Shown here: piece after piece, positions 5,287-36,476 of the stretch
Layout of the letters: each line of letters starts with the position of its first letter
Position numbering within the stretch: the stretch's first letter is position 1
Virus record (IMG/VR): IMGVR_UViG_3300020428_000782
Coordinates: 1 to 37,950 of that record
DNA from: a virus
Length of the DNA: 37,950 nucleotides
Direction: 5' to 3' (one strand)
Notes under the pieces: model-generated
What the model saw: only the letters and a program-made list of their open reading frames with translations
Databases searched by the model: none
Told to the model about the DNA's origin: nothing
Program-made: the position numbers and the translations under genes

Positions 5287-6276
5287 ATGCAATTAAATAA
5301 ATTAAGAGTTCTTGATTTATTTTCTGGCATTGGTGGTTTTAGTCTTGGATTAGAAAGCACAGGATCATTTGAAACTATTGCATTTGTTGAAAAAGATAAA
5401 TTTTGTCAACAAGTATTACAAAAAAATTTTCCAAATATACCTATTGAGGATGATGTAAGAAATGTCAAAGGAAACAAATATAAACCAAATGTCATTACTG
5501 GAGGGTTCCCATGTCAACCATTTTCCGTTGCGGGAAAAAGACGAGGAACAGACGATGACCGCTACCTCTGGGATGAAACTATTAGAATCGTTTCCGAAAC
5601 AAAACCCAAATGGTTCATTGGAGAAAATGTTGAAGGCATTATTAACATCCAAAACGGCATGGTGTTCAGACAGATCCACAATGACTTGGAAAGCGAAAAT
5701 TACGAAGTCCAAAGTATTATTATTCCAGCTTCTGGCATCGGTGCATGGCACCAAAGAAAAAGAGTCTGGATTATCGGATGCAATGTATCCAACTCTAACA
5801 CAAGATTCGGCATCGGAGAGAACCAAGAAATACAAACAAGGGGGAACACCTCTACCAATGGCAGTAAAAATGTTTCCAACACCTTCGGCAAGTTGTCAAA
5901 TGGATGTAGTAGCACCGCCAGAAACAGTTCAACAAAATTCAAAAGGATGGAGTGTGACCAGAGTTGGAACTGGAACGAAGTTCGGAGCAAAACTAAACGA
6001 TGTAGTGAACAAGATAGCAAAGATGTATCCGACACCCAGTGCATCAGAACACAAGTACAGACTAAAAGGAAACACACAAGCATCAAATTGCCTAGAAGCG
6101 AAAGCACGAAGAGCTGGTGGGAAATTATCGCCAATTTTTACGGAGTTCCTAATGGGGTATCCTATGAATTGGACAAAAATAGAAGCAACAGAATTAAATC
6201 ACTCGGAAACTCAATCGTTCCACAAATTGCAAGAGAACTCGGAAAAGCAATTATTGAAGCAGAAATAAATATATAA
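5287..6276 (+). CDS. DNA (cytosine-5) methyltransferase
   Basis: Transfers a methyl group from S-adenosylmethionine to C5 of cytosine in DNA, probably protecting phage DNA from host restriction. Motif I 'LDLFSGIGGFSLGLE' (9-23), the catalytic 'GGFPCQPFSVAGKR' with its PC dipeptide (about 73-86), 'ENVEGI' (ENV motif), 'QRKRVWIIG' (motif VIII) and the C-terminal 'RIKSLGNSIVPQIARELGKAI' (motifs IX-X) are all present. The region between motifs VIII and IX (about residues 168-285), where the target-recognition domain should be, is low-complexity Ser/Asn/Lys-rich. The same DNA carries a second long frame there (5462-6268). Inserted between the portal and Bbp19-like genes. Confidence 0.93.
   Translation: MQLNKLRVLDLFSGIGGFSLGLESTGSFETIAFVEKDKFCQQVLQKNFPNIPIEDDVRNVKGNKYKPNVITGGFPCQPFSVAGKRRGTDDDRYLWDETIRIVSETKPKWFIGENVEGIINIQNGMVFRQIHNDLESENYEVQSIIIPASGIGAWHQRKRVWIIGCNVSNSNTRFGIGENQEIQTRGNTSTNGSKNVSNTFGKLSNGCSSTARNSSTKFKRMECDQSWNWNEVRSKTKRCSEQDSKDVSDTQCIRTQVQTKRKHTSIKLPRSESTKSWWEIIANFYGVPNGVSYELDKNRSNRIKSLGNSIVPQIARELGKAIIEAEINI
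5462..6268 (+). CDS. Overlapping-frame protein embedded in the methyltransferase gene
   Basis: A 268-aa frame lies in the +1 register wholly inside the methyltransferase gene. A stop at 5456-5458 closes it upstream, and an ATG at 5462 is preceded by GAGGA at 5446-5450, so it would start independently rather than by frameshift from the gene start. It contains 'STMTWKAKITKSKVLLFQL', three copies of a 'M[YF]PT[LP]' motif ('MYPTLTQDSASE', 'MFPTPSAS', 'MYPTPSASEHK'), then 'GGKLSPIFTEFLMGYPMNWT'. I recognise this set (PTPxASD repeats, LNPxFVExLMGxPxxWT) as a block seen next to or across phage cytosine methyltransferase genes. 807 bases without a stop in AT-rich DNA is unlikely by chance. Role unknown; a modification subunit or recognition factor is conceivable. 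Confidence 0.65.
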   Translation: MSKETNINQMSLLEGSHVNHFPLREKDEEQTMTATSGMKLLESFPKQNPNGSLEKMLKALLTSKTAWCSDRSTMTWKAKITKSKVLLFQLLASVHGTKEKESGLSDAMYPTLTQDSASERTKKYKQGGTPLPMAVKMFPTPSASCQMDVVAPPETVQQNSKGWSVTRVGTGTKFGAKLNDVVNKIAKMYPTPSASEHKYRLKGNTQASNCLEAKARRAGGKLSPIFTEFLMGYPMNWTKIEATELNHSETQSFHKLQENSEKQLLKQK

Positions 6277-6280
6277 AAGA

Positions 6281-6529: not shown

Positions 6530-7292
6530 GCCTACTGAAATAAACTGGAGAGATCAACTTCCAGAAGATTTAAAAAATGATCCTTCGATGAAAACCATCG
6601 TAGATATTCCAGGTCTAGCAAAGTCTTTTGTTAATGCTCAAAAATTTATTGGAGCAGACAAAATTGCAGTACCCACCGAACACGCCACACCAGAAGATAT
6701 CAAACAATTTGCAGAACAAGTTTATTCTAAAATGGGTAGACCATCGTCAGCAGATGAATATGTCATCGAAGGTGAAGCGTCAGATATGATAACAAGTTTT
6801 AAACCATTAGCACATGAGCTAGGTCTTAATAACGAACAAGTATCTGCTTTAGTAGGTTTCTATAATGAAGCACAAGAACAAGCACAAACAAATGCTGGTG
6901 TTGATGTAGAAACACAACGAGCCGAAACAGAAGCTCTATTAAGAAAAGAATATGGTAAAGCCTATGACAGTAAATTAAATTCTGCTATGCGATTAGCACA
7001 GAATGTTTTTACACAAGAACAGTTAGATGGAATTACCCTGGCAGATGGTTCATCTCTAGGAAACAATCCAGATCTTATTAAAGGTTTTGTAAAATTAGCG
7101 TCTATGGTAGGTGAAGATCAACCTATCAATGCACCACAAGAAAATGTCTTTACGCCAGACGAAGCACAAAGAAAGATTGACCAGCACATGGTGCCTGGCT
7201 CCCCCTACTGGGATAAGAGCCATCCAAACCATGACAGAGCTGTGCAAGATGTCTTTGAATTAAGACAAATGATGTATCCAGACGAAGAATAA
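6480..7292 (+). CDS. Capsid scaffolding protein
   Basis: Likely internal scaffold for capsid assembly. It is 270 aa, acidic, rich in Gln/Glu/Ala and helical, with no enzyme motif. The N-terminus 'INWRDQLPEDLKNDPSM' and the 'MGRPSSADEYVIEG' segment (about 85-98) are hallmarks of podovirus scaffold proteins, and the C-terminal 'PNHDRAVQDVFELRQMMYP' is the usual helix that contacts the capsid protein. AAAGGAG ahead of the ATG at 6480 fixes the start despite the 50-base overlap with the Bbp19-like gene. It lies directly before the capsid gene. Confidence 0.8.
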   Translation: MVEENQVAQEQPVPVSEPTEINWRDQLPEDLKNDPSMKTIVDIPGLAKSFVNAQKFIGADKIAVPTEHATPEDIKQFAEQVYSKMGRPSSADEYVIEGEASDMITSFKPLAHELGLNNEQVSALVGFYNEAQEQAQTNAGVDVETQRAETEALLRKEYGKAYDSKLNSAMRLAQNVFTQEQLDGITLADGSSLGNNPDLIKGFVKLASMVGEDQPINAPQENVFTPDEAQRKIDQHMVPGSPYWDKSHPNHDRAVQDVFELRQMMYPDEE

Positions 7293-7455
7293 ATTCCTAG
7301 GCAGTAATGCCTGGATTATAAAGGTAGCCACATGGTGGTCTTTAAAGACAGCTTGAAAGCAAGCAAACCAAAAGTTTTAAAATCCAAGACAAGTCGATTT
7401 TATCGGTAGCTAGTCTGAACATTTATAACAACAACACAAAAAAGGAGAAAGACTT
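7293..7455 (+). promoter_or_regulatory. Structured 5' leader of the capsid gene
   Basis: A 163-bp gap packed with hairpins. At 7295-7315 TCC-AGGCA pairs with TGCCT-GGA around GTAA, with one bulge. CCAC/GTGG spans 7328-7338. GTCTTTAAAGAC at 7338-7349 is a perfect palindrome. GCTTG/CAAGC spans 7351-7364. CGAT/ATCG at 7395-7405 is nested in AGAC (7387-7390) and GTCT (7413-7416). It ends in AAAGGAGA ahead of the capsid ATG. Such leaders before phage capsid genes usually stabilise or regulate the abundant capsid mRNA; here that is inference. Confidence 0.55.
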
Positions 7456-9378: not shown

Positions 9379-11648
9379 TGCCTAGATCAACATTTGCTTT
9401 TTCTAATTTTACTGGTGGTGAGCTATCACCTAGATTAGATGGTAGAACAGATTTACAAAAATATTTTCAAGGCTGTAAAACTTTAGAGAATATGATTGTG
9501 CATCCTCATGGTGGTGCTACTCGTAGACCTGGTACACAGTTTATTAGTGAAGTTAAAACTTCTGCTAATGCTACAAGACTAATACCTTTTGAATTTTCAA
9601 CAACACAAACTTATGTCTTAGAGTTTGGTAATTTATATATGAGAGTTCACAAAGATGGTGGTCAAGTTTTAGAAGCAAATAAAACTATATCTGGAATTAC
9701 CCAGGCTAATCCAGCAGTCGTGACAGCTACTAGTCATGGTTATAGTAATGGTGATACAGTTGTTATCTCTAGTGTAGCTGGCATGACACAAGTTAATGGT
9801 AAAACTTTTTTAGTAGCTGATAAAACAACCAATACTTTTGAATTACAAAATGTTGATGGTACCGATATTAATTCTTCTGCATTTTCAGCTTACTCTTCTG
9901 GTGGTACAGTCAGTAGAGTTTTTGAACTAACAACACCTTATCTATCATCACAAGTTTCTGATTTAAAGTTTGCACAGTCAGCAGATGTCATGTTTTTATG
10001 TCATCCTTCTCACGAAGCATCCAAGTTATCTAGAACTGGTCATACAACCTGGAGCCTAGATGAAATAAATTTTGATGGTGATGCTTTCTTAGATGCAAAC
10101 ACTACCACTACTACCCTCACCCCAGCTTCTGCCTCTACTGGCACAAGCGTTAATATAACCGCCTCTGCAACTACTGGTATTAATAATGACCAGGGATGGC
10201 TTACAACAGATGTCGGTAGATCTATAAAATTTAATTCTGGTGTTGCTACAATAACAGCCAGGACAAACTCTACTGTAGTTGTTTGTACTATTACAACAGC
10301 TTTTGCCAATACAGATGCCACAGCTTCTTTTCAATTAGGTGCTTTTTCAGATACTACTGGTCATCCCTCTTGTGTCACCTTTTTTGAACAACGATTAGTT
10401 TTTGCAGCTACAACTGCTAATCCTCAAACAATATTTTTTTCACAATCTGGTGATTTTGAAAACATGACTACTGGCACTAATGCTACCGATGGTATGAAAT
10501 TTACTATTGGATCAGACCAGGTTAATGCCATTAAATATATTAAAGGTTTAAGAACTTTAGTCTTAGGTACATCTAGTGGTGAGTTTATAGCTACTGCATC
10601 ATCCAGTGCAGAACCTATCACACCAACTAATATCCAAATTAAAAGACAAGCTGGATATGGTACCTCTGATGTAGATGCTCTAATTGCTGGTAATAAAATT
10701 TTATTTGTACAACGAGCTGGTAAAAAAGTTCGTGAACTTACTTATGACTATGACACTGATGGATACATAGCTCCAGACCTTACTATATTATCAGAACATA
10801 TAGGTGGCTCTGGTGTAGCAACTGGATTTACACAATGGACTTATCAACAAGAACCAGACAGTATTGTTTGGGTTGTAAGATCTGATGGTGTTCTTTGTGC
10901 CATGACTTATCAAAGATCAGAACAAGTAGTTGCCTGGCATCGACATATTATGGGTGGTGCTTTTGGAAGTGGTACTGCTGTCGTAGAAAGTGTGGCTGCT
11001 ATATCTAACTCTACTGCTGCATCACAAGGTGAAGATACTTTGTATATGATTGTGAAAAGAACAGTCAATGGTGCTACACGCAGATATGTTGAATTTTTAA
11101 AACCTTTTGATTACTCTTCTGTTATTGAAGATGCCTGGTTCTTAGATAGTGCCTTGCAATATTCTGGATCAGCAGTGACTTCTGTTTCTGGTCTAGATCA
11201 CTTAGAAGGTCAAACAGTTTCTATTCTGGCTAACGGAGCTACTCATGCAAACAAAACTGTGAGTGATGGATCTATTACATTAGATAGGTCAGCTACAAAA
11301 ATAACAGTAGGATTACCTTATACTTCTAGCTTACAAACTATGAGAATAGAAAGTGGTAGTGCCGATGGATCAGCACAAGGTAAAACAAAAAGAATACAAG
11401 AATTAACTATAAGGCTATTCGAAACAGTGGGAGCTGAAGTAGGAAGTCAAGCAGACAACACAGACATAATACCATTTAGAGATTCCTCTATGGCTATGGA
11501 TCAAGCGGTTAGTTTATTTAGCGGAGATAAACAAATTGAATTTAACTCTGACTATGAAACTGATGGGTTTGTATTTGTAAAACAAACACAACCTCTTCCT
11601 TTAACTGTGACTGCTTTGTATCCGCAGCTCAACACTTATGACGGATAA
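9378..11648 (+). CDS. Tail tubular protein B-like (T7 gp12 type nozzle)
   Basis: A 756-aa beta-rich nozzle protein. The N-terminus 'SNFTGGELSPRLDGRTDLQKY' and 'MIVHPHGGATRRPGTQFI' is diagnostic for podovirus tail tubular protein B. A BIG-like insertion around residues 105-180 ('ISGITQANPAVVTA') and the 'FEQRLVFAATTANPQTIFFSQSG' propeller-like segment (about 335-357) also fit. The start is a GTG inside the TAG of the preceding gene (TAGTG), implying translational coupling. Length is normal. Confidence 0.9.
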   Translation: MPRSTFAFSNFTGGELSPRLDGRTDLQKYFQGCKTLENMIVHPHGGATRRPGTQFISEVKTSANATRLIPFEFSTTQTYVLEFGNLYMRVHKDGGQVLEANKTISGITQANPAVVTATSHGYSNGDTVVISSVAGMTQVNGKTFLVADKTTNTFELQNVDGTDINSSAFSAYSSGGTVSRVFELTTPYLSSQVSDLKFAQSADVMFLCHPSHEASKLSRTGHTTWSLDEINFDGDAFLDANTTTTTLTPASASTGTSVNITASATTGINNDQGWLTTDVGRSIKFNSGVATITARTNSTVVVCTITTAFANTDATASFQLGAFSDTTGHPSCVTFFEQRLVFAATTANPQTIFFSQSGDFENMTTGTNATDGMKFTIGSDQVNAIKYIKGLRTLVLGTSSGEFIATASSSAEPITPTNIQIKRQAGYGTSDVDALIAGNKILFVQRAGKKVRELTYDYDTDGYIAPDLTILSEHIGGSGVATGFTQWTYQQEPDSIVWVVRSDGVLCAMTYQRSEQVVAWHRHIMGGAFGSGTAVVESVAAISNSTAASQGEDTLYMIVKRTVNGATRRYVEFLKPFDYSSVIEDAWFLDSALQYSGSAVTSVSGLDHLEGQTVSILANGATHANKTVSDGSITLDRSATKITVGLPYTSSLQTMRIESGSADGSAQGKTKRIQELTIRLFETVGAEVGSQADNTDIIPFRDSSMAMDQAVSLFSGDKQIEFNSDYETDGFVFVKQTQPLPLTVTALYPQLNTYDG

Positions 11649-30343: not shown

Positions 30344-30477
30344 TGCCAGGAAAAGGACTTTATAGTAATATTAATTCTAGGCGTAAAAAAGGAATCTCAA
30401 GATCTAAAAAGAACTCAACTATCTCAGCAAAGGCTTACAAGAACATGAAAGCTGGGTTTCCTAAAAAGAAAAAATAA
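30343..30477 (+). CDS. 'MPGKGLY' basic small protein
   Basis: A 44-aa protein starting 'MPGKGLYSNINSRRKKG', Lys/Arg-rich and ending in KKKK. Very similar starts (MPGKGLYANI..., then a basic linker and 'AKAFK'-like end) recur in short proteins of marine phages, so it is conserved and probably nucleic-acid- or virion-associated. GGAG lies upstream and the start overlaps the preceding stop. Confidence 0.65.
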   Translation: MPGKGLYSNINSRRKKGISRSKKNSTISAKAYKNMKAGFPKKKK

Positions 30478-30488
30478 GATATAAAATA

Positions 30489-30506
30489 CCCTTCCTATGG
30501 GAAGGG
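30489..30506. repeat. Inverted repeat overlapping the tRNA 5' acceptor strand
   Basis: CCCTTCC at 30489-30495 is the reverse complement of GGAAGGG (30500-30506), the tRNA 5' acceptor strand, and equals the tRNA 3' acceptor strand. The leader can therefore form a competing hairpin. It may influence tRNA processing or be a relic of an earlier tRNA copy. Confidence 0.45.
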
Positions 30507-30590
30507 TGGCAGAGTTGGTTGATTGCACTAGTCTTGAAAACTAGCAAACATGAAAGTGTTTCGTGGGTTCGAATCCCACCCCTTCCGCCA
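30500..30590 (+). tRNA. tRNA-Ser (anticodon TGA)
   Basis: A 91-base cloverleaf. Acceptor GGAAGGG (30500-30506) pairs with CCCTTCC (30580-30586), followed by discriminator G and an encoded CCA. The anticodon stem CTAGT/ACTAG encloses the loop CTTGAAA with anticodon TGA (30535-30537). The long variable arm AAACA/TGTTT (30546-30561) is class II, as expected for serine. The T arm is GTGGG-TTCGAAT-CCCAC. It decodes UCN, especially UCA. It looks intact and functional, about 100 bp from the integrase attachment core. Confidence 0.95.
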
Positions 30591-30606
30591 TACTAAAATG
30601 TTGTAG

Positions 30607-30631
30607 TTTAATTTGTGTTTAATTTGGTGTT
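30607..30631 (+). repeat. Left arm-type repeats (P arm)
   Basis: Two overlapping direct repeats, TTTAATTTG-TGTT (30607-30619, one G missing) and TTTAATTTGGTGTT (30618-30631), 11 bp apart. They share AATTTGGTGTT with the group at 30781-30815 and probably are integrase arm-binding sites. Confidence 0.65.
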
Positions 30632-30670
30632 ATTGCATTTTAAAATAAAAAAAACTATATTTTTCAATGG

Positions 30671-30691
30671 TGGTTAGCGGTCTTGAAAACC
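30671..30691 (+). other. Candidate attP core, resembling a tRNA-Ser(UGA) anticodon arm
   Basis: TGGTTAGCGGTCTTGAAAACC contains the anticodon-loop sequence of a tRNA-Ser(UGA): GGT-CTTGAAA-ACC, which also forms a small hairpin. It shares GTCTTGAAAAC with the phage tRNA (30531-30541). It lies between two groups of integrase-type arm repeats and 146 bp before the integrase, the expected place for a tRNA-targeting crossover core. No T-arm or acceptor sequence follows it. Confidence 0.6.
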
Positions 30692-30780
30692 AAAATAAAA
30701 CAAAGTATATCAACAAAAAAATACTGAAAAACTTGAATAACACAATAATGTTGATGTCTGTATACTAAGTATATTTAGTC

Positions 30781-30815
30781 TAATTTGGTGTTAATTTGGT
30801 GTTGTATTTGGTGTT
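30781..30815 (+). repeat. Right arm-type repeats (P' arm)
   Basis: Three direct repeats of ATTTGGTGTT at 11-12-bp spacing (start points about 30783, 30794, 30806). Same orientation as the left group. The last runs into TATAAT at 30815-30820, so integrase bound here would cover its own promoter. Confidence 0.7.
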
Positions 30816-30820
30816 ATAAT
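30815..30820 (+). promoter_or_regulatory. Probable -10 box of the integrase gene
   Basis: A perfect TATAAT 16 bases before the integrase ATG. A clear -35 is not visible; TTAATT at 30791 with 18-bp spacing is the best candidate and overlaps the arm repeats. Inferred from sequence only. Confidence 0.45.
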
Positions 30821-30836
30821 ACCTATCTTAATAAGT

Positions 30837-32093
30837 ATGAAAGCACACAAAGTTAAAAACAATGGCAAATGGGTATGGAGAGTTAGAATACCTAATGGCA
30901 GAAATGCAGATGGTAATTATCTCTATGCTTATGTTTACGCAAACACTTCTAAAGACGCAGTAGAAAAAGGTTATGCTAAAAGAGAAGAGTTAAAAAATAA
31001 AAATAATATTTTACCGTCTACAGATGGTAAAGCTAACATCACTTTAGAAGAAGGAATAAAAAAAATTTGTATGTTCTGGGATACTTTAAGTGACGACAGA
31101 TTAAATGATCCAGAAGGTAATGAGGGTATTGAACCAAAAACTGCTAAAGGCTACAAATCAAATATTGAAGTAATTTACAAAACAGATGTAGATTTAAAAA
31201 CAGACATAAATGATATCGATAGTGTTTTTGTAGAAGATAAAATTTTAAATGGATTAAAAGATAAAAAATTTAATTTATCTAAAAGACAACAAGAAAGATG
31301 TTTCCAAAAAATTCATGCTATGCTTGTTTACTTAAAACAAAGAAAACAAATTAGAGAAGTTGCAACCAGAGATTTTTTAGATGTTGGCTCTATGGTTAAG
31401 CCTCCTAAATACAAACCAAGTATTGATAATAAAGTACCTTTATCAGATCAAGATATAATTAAAGTTCATAATTATTTAGATGCAGCTTTAAAATTTGGCA
31501 AGGGTGGTGATATCAATTTGGAAAGACAAGCAGCGTTAGCTATTAAAATTCAACTGGCATCTGGAACAAGAATTGAAGAAGTTTTACCTTTGGAATATAA
31601 AGATTTTGATTGGAAAAATGTAGATCTTACTATCTCTAAATCTCAATGTTCACCAGACAGAGTAAAAAAAACAAAAGCTGGTAGTTTAAGAAAAAACCCT
31701 AATGACAAAGGCGTAAGGGTAGTTTGGTTTAATAGAGATATACAGCCTCATTTTCAATTTTATGTAAGTAAACAAGCAATATTACTACATGATATTAAAG
31801 ATATCTCCGAATTTAAAATTTTTACTACACTTAAAGAGGCTTATGTTCATACTTTTATTCAAAAAATGAGAGAAGAACTTGGTATTATACAAATGACAAC
31901 AAAAAGTTTTAGAAGATATTTTATGACTAAAATGAAAAATCTTAAAACTGGTGACCAAAGACTTTTAGATGCTACTGATATTAGACTACAAGTAGGTCAC
32001 GCAGACGAATTAACTCAACAAGATTATATTGATTATACTACTGAAACTACAAAACTTGCTTGTGAGAATAATTTTAGAGAAACTAATAATTAA
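30837..32093 (+). CDS. int: Tyrosine recombinase / integrase
   Basis: Catalyses site-specific integration and excision between attP and the host attB. 418 aa, normal for phage integrases, with an N-terminal arm-binding region ('WVWRVRIPNGRNADGNYLYA') and a central core-binding domain. In the catalytic domain 'ASGTRIEEVLPL' supplies R245, 'TTKSFRRYF' the box II arginine R359, 'LQVGHADE' H388 and 'QQDYIDYT' the nucleophile Y397 or Y400. The usual His of HxxR is a Lys (K356), as seen in some integrases. It follows attP on the same strand. Confidence 0.92.
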   Translation: MKAHKVKNNGKWVWRVRIPNGRNADGNYLYAYVYANTSKDAVEKGYAKREELKNKNNILPSTDGKANITLEEGIKKICMFWDTLSDDRLNDPEGNEGIEPKTAKGYKSNIEVIYKTDVDLKTDINDIDSVFVEDKILNGLKDKKFNLSKRQQERCFQKIHAMLVYLKQRKQIREVATRDFLDVGSMVKPPKYKPSIDNKVPLSDQDIIKVHNYLDAALKFGKGGDINLERQAALAIKIQLASGTRIEEVLPLEYKDFDWKNVDLTISKSQCSPDRVKKTKAGSLRKNPNDKGVRVVWFNRDIQPHFQFYVSKQAILLHDIKDISEFKIFTTLKEAYVHTFIQKMREELGIIQMTTKSFRRYFMTKMKNLKTGDQRLLDATDIRLQVGHADELTQQDYIDYTTETTKLACENNFRETNN

Positions 32094-32163: not shown

Positions 32164-32985
32164 TTATAACCCACAATACCCATCGCACTCGTCTAAAAAT
32201 GAGTATTGACCAGAAATCTCATCTTTTTCTCTTAAATCTACCTCATCAATAGGCTTACAATCTCTATGTAAATACAAAATTGAATCAAGTTTGTGTTCTT
32301 TAGCTCGTAATAATTTATCCATTTTTACAACATCATCCCATTCTTTTTTATTATCTTTTATTCTTCTCCATTCTTTGTTTGAATGAAAAGGACAAAAAGT
32401 ACAAGCACTTCTAGGTGGTTCTGGATAATTATTTTTTTTCATCCATTCAATACAATGATGCCTACGAATTGATCTTTCAACTAATGGATATTTATTTTTA
32501 ATGTATTTTAATGGATTTATTTTCATTCTTTGCATTTCATCGTAAGAAATACCCATAATTAATTCTACTTTTGTGCCTTTAATAACTCTTTCGCCTTTAT
32601 TATATCCTAAAATAGATCTTATTTTTTGTGTGACTGGTTTAACTTTGTAATCCGCAGTACACTTTCTCCGCATTATACCCTTTTTACCAGTCTTTTTATT
32701 TATTGTAAAAAAAGGTGCATCAAAATCTTTATGTAATCCTAAAGCCGCATTTAAAATATCATCTTTTAAATTTCTGTGCTTTGCTATATAAACTGGAAAC
32801 CATAATTCATCTCTTAACCACTCTAACCAATCGTAAACTTCTTTAGGTTCAGCTCCAGTATCAGCAAAGATAGCACAATCAACCATAGGTATTTCACCTT
32901 TTTGTATCATTAATGCTAGTGTGGATGATTGAACCCCAGCACCAAGAGATAAAACTTTTAAATTTTTTTTTATTATTGATGACAT
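32164..32985 (-). CDS. PAPS reductase/ATP-pyrophosphatase-family protein
   Basis: A 273-aa protein of the adenine-nucleotide alpha-hydrolase (PP-loop) superfamily. 'VLSLGAGVQSSTLALM' (S13-S21) is the pyrophosphate-binding loop in its phage variant, and 'DCAIFADTGAEPKEVYDWL' the second strand. Conserved cysteines, C109 ('RRKCTADYKVKP'), C178 ('HHCIEW'), C195 and C198 ('SACTFCPF'), plus 'DECDGYCGL' at the end, suggest an iron-sulfur cluster or zinc. Such phage genes are usually labelled PAPS reductase but probably activate a substrate with ATP; the substrate is unknown. DNA or tRNA modification is a reasonable guess. Last gene of the leftward operon. Confidence 0.75.
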   Translation of the reverse strand: MSSIIKKNLKVLSLGAGVQSSTLALMIQKGEIPMVDCAIFADTGAEPKEVYDWLEWLRDELWFPVYIAKHRNLKDDILNAALGLHKDFDAPFFTINKKTGKKGIMRRKCTADYKVKPVTQKIRSILGYNKGERVIKGTKVELIMGISYDEMQRMKINPLKYIKNKYPLVERSIRRHHCIEWMKKNNYPEPPRSACTFCPFHSNKEWRRIKDNKKEWDDVVKMDKLLRAKEHKLDSILYLHRDCKPIDEVDLREKDEISGQYSFLDECDGYCGL

Positions 32986-35813: not shown

Positions 35814-36476
35814 TTAAAGTTGAACAGTTTTGTAATTAAACATTTTAGCATTAGAACTAGCCATGAACTGTGCAATTTCTTTTACTTCCATGTTTTGTCT
35901 TACATGAAAACTCATAAAAGAACTGACATTGTATCTATTATTACTAAGGTTTGTTGTTGGTTTACGAAGAACACAAAGCTCATAATGAGATTTATCTTCA
36001 CTCTCTATTAATCCAAATACCTCAGTTTTATCAATAGTTCTTGGATCAATAAATGGTGTAAAAAATAAGATAAAACCAAAATCCCACTCTCTAGTTTTGT
36101 TTAAATTTTGCATTGTAATTAAATCTTTTCTTCTTAACTCTTTATGAGAACTAGCTGGTAAATTTAAAAAATGAGATTCTTTTTTATTATCGTAAAAATA
36201 AACATGGTCGTCTTTATCTTGAAAACAATTAATTAATTTAAGAATAGGTTCTTGATATATTTCTACTGGTGTAATTTCTAAGTAGGAAGCTATTTTGTTT
36301 ATTTGTGAGGCTTTTAAATCATGCTCTGGATTGCTCACTATTCTATTCATAGCTCTATGTGTAATACCCAGATATTCCGCACACTCTTTTTGGTTTTTAC
36401 CTACTTTTTTTCCTTCTTCAAAAAAAAATTTAAGCCTATGTTTCATAAAAAGAGGATTATTATTTATTGTATTCAC
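35814..36476 (-). CDS. Lysogeny repressor (HTH, Cro/CI family)
   Basis: A 220-aa regulator that probably maintains lysogeny. Its HTH spans about residues 27-70: 'NQKECAEYLGITHRAMNRIV', then 'LKASQINKIASYLEITPVEIY'. The C-terminal 130 residues have no recognisable S24 protease Ser/Lys pair but look like a sensing or dimerisation domain ('EWDFGFILFFTPFIDPRTID', 'HYELCVLRKPT'). It reads away from the early gene at 36584, the classic divergent arrangement with operators in between. Confidence 0.75.
   Translation of the reverse strand: MNTINNNPLFMKHRLKFFFEEGKKVGKNQKECAEYLGITHRAMNRIVSNPEHDLKASQINKIASYLEITPVEIYQEPILKLINCFQDKDDHVYFYDNKKESHFLNLPASSHKELRRKDLITMQNLNKTREWDFGFILFFTPFIDPRTIDKTEVFGLIESEDKSHYELCVLRKPTTNLSNNRYNVSSFMSFHVRQNMEVKEIAQFMASSNAKMFNYKTVQL

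Follow-up and report, generated by a model that had tools for sequence, protein, structure and literature searches.

A putative integration cassette with its own tRNA-Ser(UGA) in an HTVC010P-like marine podovirus

A complete tRNA, a lone anticodon arm and an integrase gene

The window (the whole stretch of 37,950 nucleotides analysed here) contains a complete tRNA-Ser(UGA) gene, a separate fragment resembling the anticodon arm of the same tRNA, short repeats on both sides of this fragment and an integrase gene. These features are given below, together with a repressor-like gene further downstream. L219 denotes a related contig, IMGVR_UViG_3300017725_001855.

30500–30590, + strand: complete phage tRNA-Ser(UGA) with encoded CCA, the proposed replacement tRNA (ARAGORN; Rfam RF00005)
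30612–30620, + strand: imperfect left arm-type repeat, TTTGTGTTT (from the sequence; L219 likewise has two left repeats)
30623–30631, + strand: left arm-type repeat, exact copy of TTTGGTGTT
30677–30691, + strand: attP core, anticodon-arm stretch of tRNA-Ser(UGA), GCGGTCTTGAAAACC (unique in the window; identity with alphaproteobacterial tRNA-Ser(UGA))
30784–30792, + strand: right arm-type repeat, exact copy of TTTGGTGTT
30795–30803, + strand: right arm-type repeat, exact copy of TTTGGTGTT
30807–30815, + strand: right arm-type repeat, exact copy of TTTGGTGTT
30837–32093, + strand: tyrosine integrase, 418 aa (phrog_1, PF00589 and homology to the L219 integrase)
35814–36476, − strand: CI-like transcriptional repressor (weak matches to the phrog_8 and phrog_3 regulator families, E 4e-5 to 1e-4; kept in L219)

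Regarding the tRNA, both ARAGORN and Rfam RF00005 (59.5 bits, E 2.2e-12) recognised the gene at 30500–30590, in agreement with the first-pass annotation, which had called it complete. Among the alphaproteobacterial tRNA-Ser(UGA) genes that we examined, the closest agree with it at 76–78 of 91 positions. Host assignment through this sequence failed, as the best alphaproteobacterial matches (about 82–87% identical) lay in genome segments of 36–67% GC. A promoter-like site was looked for upstream of the gene and none was found. An inverted repeat, ACCCTTCC-TATG-GGAAGGGT, at positions 30488–30507 overlaps the 5′ acceptor strand of the tRNA, and L219 has a similar one in the same place although its tRNA has diverged; it may terminate the upstream gene, signal processing or simply be a relic.

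The window has a single copy of the 15-mer GCGGTCTTGAAAACC, which is not followed by a tRNA. It corresponds to the anticodon arm of tRNA-Ser(UGA), including the first three bases of the 3′ strand, and the tRNA-like part measures 13–16 nt, the D-stem bases of the host genes being unmatched upstream of A30676. Strand exchange would likely take place within CTTGAAA (30682–30688). After ACC, the phage sequence continues as AAAATAAAAC, which neither closes the anticodon stem nor provides a variable arm, a T arm or an acceptor; upstream of the core there is neither an acceptor nor a D arm. The first-pass annotation had described a 21-nt stretch (30671–30691) running from D-loop to anticodon, with nothing like a T arm or an acceptor behind it. 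Its anticodon-arm part and the missing 3′ half stand; the D-loop similarity (TGGTT) was dropped, being absent from the host tRNA alignments and from L219. Similarly, the three right-hand repeats that it had reported are exact, while its two left-hand ones are one exact copy and one degenerate copy.

The core and the repeats are beyond what chance would give. TTTGGTGTT has four exact copies in the whole 38 kb, with 0.75 expected, and all of them fall inside 193 bp around the core. When we compared positions 30591–30840 with the tRNAs of two SAR11 genomes (47 distinct sequences), the matches of 12 nt or longer were to tRNA-Ser(UGA) only (14 nt). In Markov simulations of the same region, 65 of 20,000 sequences (0.3%) gave a match of at least 13 nt to any of the 47 tRNAs, a figure obtained before demanding the isotype of the adjacent phage tRNA, which the core does share (Ser-UGA). 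The 250-bp region is also present, identical, in two further IMG/VR contigs.

The gene that follows the core encodes an integrase, as the first reading had held, and this integrase is of the tyrosine family. It matched phrog_1 (integrase) with an E-value of 1.6e-18 and PF00589 at a borderline 4.5e-6, slightly short of the curated cut-off. Its L219 counterpart, homologous along the full length, matched PF00589 above the cut-off (E 2.5e-12). A profile search of the PDB with the integrase gave no match, and an AlphaFold model was poor (pLDDT 43) and was set aside. Next to the integrase, at 32164–32985, lies a phosphoadenosine phosphosulfate reductase-like gene, in whose place L219 has a different gene.

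With a tyrosine integrase and a weakly recognised CI-like repressor, the phage is probably temperate. The two ends of the window share about 102 bp with 2 mismatches, so that the phage genome closes into a circle of about 37.85 kb; therefore, attP is intact and the window holds no host junction. The large terminase subunit (TerL) is about 50–54% identical to those of HTVC010P-like pelagiphages, and an HTVC010P-like marine podovirus is the best explanation for the backbone. Elsewhere in the window, a gene at 5287–6276 carries sequence motifs of a DNA cytosine methyltransferase and is missing from a close relative (L008), whose alignment skips from window position 5308 to 6280.

Predicted effect of integration on the host tRNA gene

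The first-pass annotation had held that the core is too short to restore either half of a host tRNA. The core is identical to tRNA-Ser(UGA) over 11 or 14 bp in 29 SAR11 genes and over up to 15 bp in those of other alphaproteobacteria; this range of 11–15 bp applies to an alphaproteobacterial-type host, the core fitting tRNA-Ser(UGA) of many bacteria. A conventional tRNA-restoring core measures about 30–45 bp, whereas tRNA identity here reaches at most 13–16 nt. We then built attL and attR in silico, fusing phage and host sequence at CTTGAAA for each of ten tRNA-Ser(UGA) genes from alphaproteobacteria. ARAGORN detected no tRNA in these junctions other than the phage's own, about 90 bp inside one prophage end. 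For these ten host genes, the claim about the core holds in silico.

Other tRNAs covering UCA codons had been named as a possible refutation. In two SAR11 genomes, we found one gene each for Ser-UGA, Ser-GGA and Ser-GCU. By the decoding rules, Ser-GGA and Ser-GCU tRNAs should not read UCA, so nothing else in these genomes should read this codon. In a scan of 147 Pelagibacteraceae genomes, those with a match showed one tRNA-Ser(UGA) each.

We consider it likely that a temperate HTVC010P-like marine podovirus uses this region as its integration cassette, in tRNA-dependent lysogeny. The integrase is predicted to bind the TTTGGTGTT arm sites and would carry out recombination between the short core and the anticodon arm in the host tRNA-Ser(UGA) gene. 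This gene would be split, and neither junction would rebuild a tRNA because the identity covers only about 11–15 bp; the phage-side sequence at the predicted junctions is AAAATAAAACAAAGTATATC on the attL side and TTTTTCAATGGTGGTTAG on the attR side. The phage tRNA-Ser(UGA), presumably expressed from its place near one prophage end, would then supply the sole UCA reader, so that the lysogen should need the prophage. From the locus we infer the host, integration at tRNA-Ser(UGA), an expressed phage tRNA and a cell that depends on it. Given the in-silico junctions, the single UCA reader in the two SAR11 genomes and the relatives described below, a broken host gene replaced by the phage tRNA, as the first reading had proposed, is the best-supported reading.

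A diverged cassette in a relative and the rival explanations

L219 is 94% identical to the window across about 5 kb of backbone on one side, and it is nearly identical immediately upstream of the tRNA. From there on, the two tRNA-Ser(UGA) genes share 76 of 91 positions and the integrases are 30% identical. The core of L219 is AGTCTTGAAAACT, with 13 bp common to the ACTAG-type SAR11 tRNA-Ser(UGA) genes, and its similarity to the tRNA is cut off on both sides, as in the window. Its arm repeats are TCGGTAG, also two on the left and three on the right, and the right-hand ones are spaced by 11 and 12 bp in both contigs. The isotype of tRNA and core is Ser-UGA in both. The comparison shows, at the sequence level, that the tRNA diverges along with the attachment site and the integrase. 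Across relatives, tRNA, core, arm sites and integrase go together, an association drawn from few independent cassettes. The other matches to the two-copy pattern, L220 and L221, did not have this layout. In L220, an unrelated contig, a 5′-half fragment of tRNA-Ser(UGA) lies beside an integrase gene (reverse complement, 7196–7430), with a complete tRNA-Ser(UGA) 146 bp on; the fragment is possibly a 5′-type attachment site.

In both cassettes, core and tRNA differ at anticodon-stem pair 29-41, which is G-C in the core and A-U in the tRNA of the window, and A-T in the core and U-A in the tRNA of L219. One could speculate that the cassette is exchanged within this phage group as one unit of tRNA, core, arm sites and integrase, and that a mismatch between tRNA and core is maintained at this pair so that the integrase cuts host genes and spares the phage copy; with two cassettes behind it, we regard this idea as rather unlikely. 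If it were true, which anticodon-stem variants of the host are open to lysogeny would also depend on the core. A general rule by which phage tRNAs avoid their own core was not upheld, as some tRNA-Leu phages, such as L224, show no such difference.

Genome searches of limited sensitivity revealed no integrated copy of the phage and no junction. In single-sequence searches of low sensitivity, no relative of the integrase was found in genome contigs, and 144 Pelagibacteraceae and 372 alphaproteobacteria gave no convincing one. A two-sequence integrase profile run against 397 Pelagibacteraceae and 385 alphaproteobacteria gave only weak matches in short stretches. In IMG/VR, attL- and attR-type patterns retrieved only the phage itself and L005, an unrelated conventional prophage at tRNA-Ser(UGA). 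Besides, one genome contig (G473, contig C14) has a complete tRNA-Ser(UGA) and, about 0.9 kb downstream of it, a gene for a weakly similar integrase (30382–31482; L156); this is probably a conventional element that uses the same target.

Phage tRNAs can serve lytic translation or evade host tRNA cleavage, roles also discussed in PMC10865867. One could argue that the tRNA-Ser(UGA) has such a role, that its proximity to attP is incidental and that integration is tolerated otherwise. UCA is indeed common in the phage (19.8 per 1000), but it is equally common in SAR11 (23.0 per 1000), which leaves no deficit for a phage tRNA to make up. Moreover, the isotype of the tRNA is that of the core in the window, in L219 and, for tRNA-Leu, in HTVC011P, and the five HTVC010P-like isolates that we checked all lack tRNA genes; we find a purely lytic role improbable. 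That the lone anticodon arm is the decayed remnant of a former attP, with the phage integrating elsewhere or nowhere, would agree with the lysogen-free outcome of our searches. Yet near-identical contigs retain the core, the arm repeats and the integrase, and L219 has an unchanged cassette geometry despite its different arm sequences; this suggests function, and we find decay very improbable.

Conventional integration would require a core that is longer in the true host, with the tRNA rebuilt and the extra tRNA a relic. Some host tRNA might share more identity with the core, and the conventional prophage L005 does occupy tRNA-Ser(UGA). However, with these parts of the tRNA missing on both sides, the phage core could restore neither the 5′ nor the 3′ half of a bacterial tRNA, and the core of L219 is truncated likewise. 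We give this explanation hardly any credence, and retain tRNA-dependent lysogeny as the preferred reading.

Comparison with known tRNA-dependent and conventional systems

Lysogeny dependent on a phage tRNA is already known (Guerrero-Bustamante & Hatfull 2024, PMC10865867), as is tRNA-Leu replacement in a SAR11 phage (PMC6811365); what is new here is the target, tRNA-Ser(UGA), the HTVC010P-like lineage and the replacement of the cassette. The locus adds this tRNA and this lineage to the phages whose lysogens apparently come to depend on a phage tRNA. Such dependence would be strong in streamlined marine bacteria, where each essential tRNA has a single gene.

Experimental tests of tRNA-dependent lysogeny have been made in phages of Mycobacterium and related Actinobacteria, where short cores are paired with a cognate tRNA and long cores occur without one (Table 2 of PMC10865867). 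Fionnbharth, LeBron, Gaia and others among them have, like the window, a tyrosine integrase, flanking arm-type sites and a cognate phage tRNA, here the tRNA-Ser(UGA) at 30500–30590. Their cores of 8–17 bp lie inside the host tRNA gene and no tRNA is rebuilt, as in our in-silico junctions. They use tRNA-Lys, tRNA-Ile2 and tRNA-Leu, whereas the window belongs to a marine podovirus with tRNA-Ser(UGA) and a probable alphaproteobacterial host, known from its sequence alone.

Closer to the probable host, HTVC011P is reported to integrate in the SAR11 tRNA-Leu(TAG), and a related Fonsibacter phage is stated to bring its own tRNA-Leu as a replacement for the lost function (PMC6811365). We found in HTVC011P an integrase, a complete tRNA-Leu(UAG) and, as in the window, a separate short core beside the tRNA, with 12–13 bp common to tRNA-Leu(UAG) of two SAR11 genomes. 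The HTVC019P-group III pelagiphages HTVC011P and HTVC025P, and uv-Fonsiphage-EPL, all at tRNA-Leu(UAG) (PMC6811365), are SAR11 podoviruses too; the group III pelagiphages differ in tRNA isotype, in having an Autographiviridae instead of an HTVC010P-like backbone and in an integrase with no BLAST-detectable similarity to ours. A two-copy tRNA-Leu pattern retrieved 28 stretches from IMG/VR (L222–L249), 27 of which carry a complete tRNA-Leu(UAG) and a separate short core. These 27 contigs suggest that replacement-tRNA integration may be common among marine phages. By their description (PMC11476347), Lo5R7ANS-like prophages of the alphaproteobacterium Sinorhizobium meliloti, integrated at tRNA-Leu(UAG), match our proposal in that the host tRNA gene is inactivated and a cognate tRNA lies on the prophage; they differ in the tRNA (Leu) and in the host.

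Regarding the HTVC010P-like phages, the best-studied members are regarded as strictly lytic (PMC8163748), and in the isolates HTVC010P, HTVC100P, Greip and HTVC203P we found no tRNA gene and no annotated integrase. HTVC028P (L279) resembles the window in its related backbone (TerL 49.6% identical), its integrase and a tRNA-derived core upstream of the integrase. Unlike the window, it has a 38-bp core, no phage tRNA and an integrase unrelated by BLAST, a conventional tRNA-restoring arrangement. Its attP (10386–10423, minus strand) comprises 38 bp of the 5′ half of SAR11 tRNA-Asn, so integration would restore the 5′ end of the gene and not the 3′ end. Taken with the L219 cassette, the long-core, tRNA-free HTVC028P means that the pairing of short cores with cognate tRNAs can be tested as a rule by a sequence survey.
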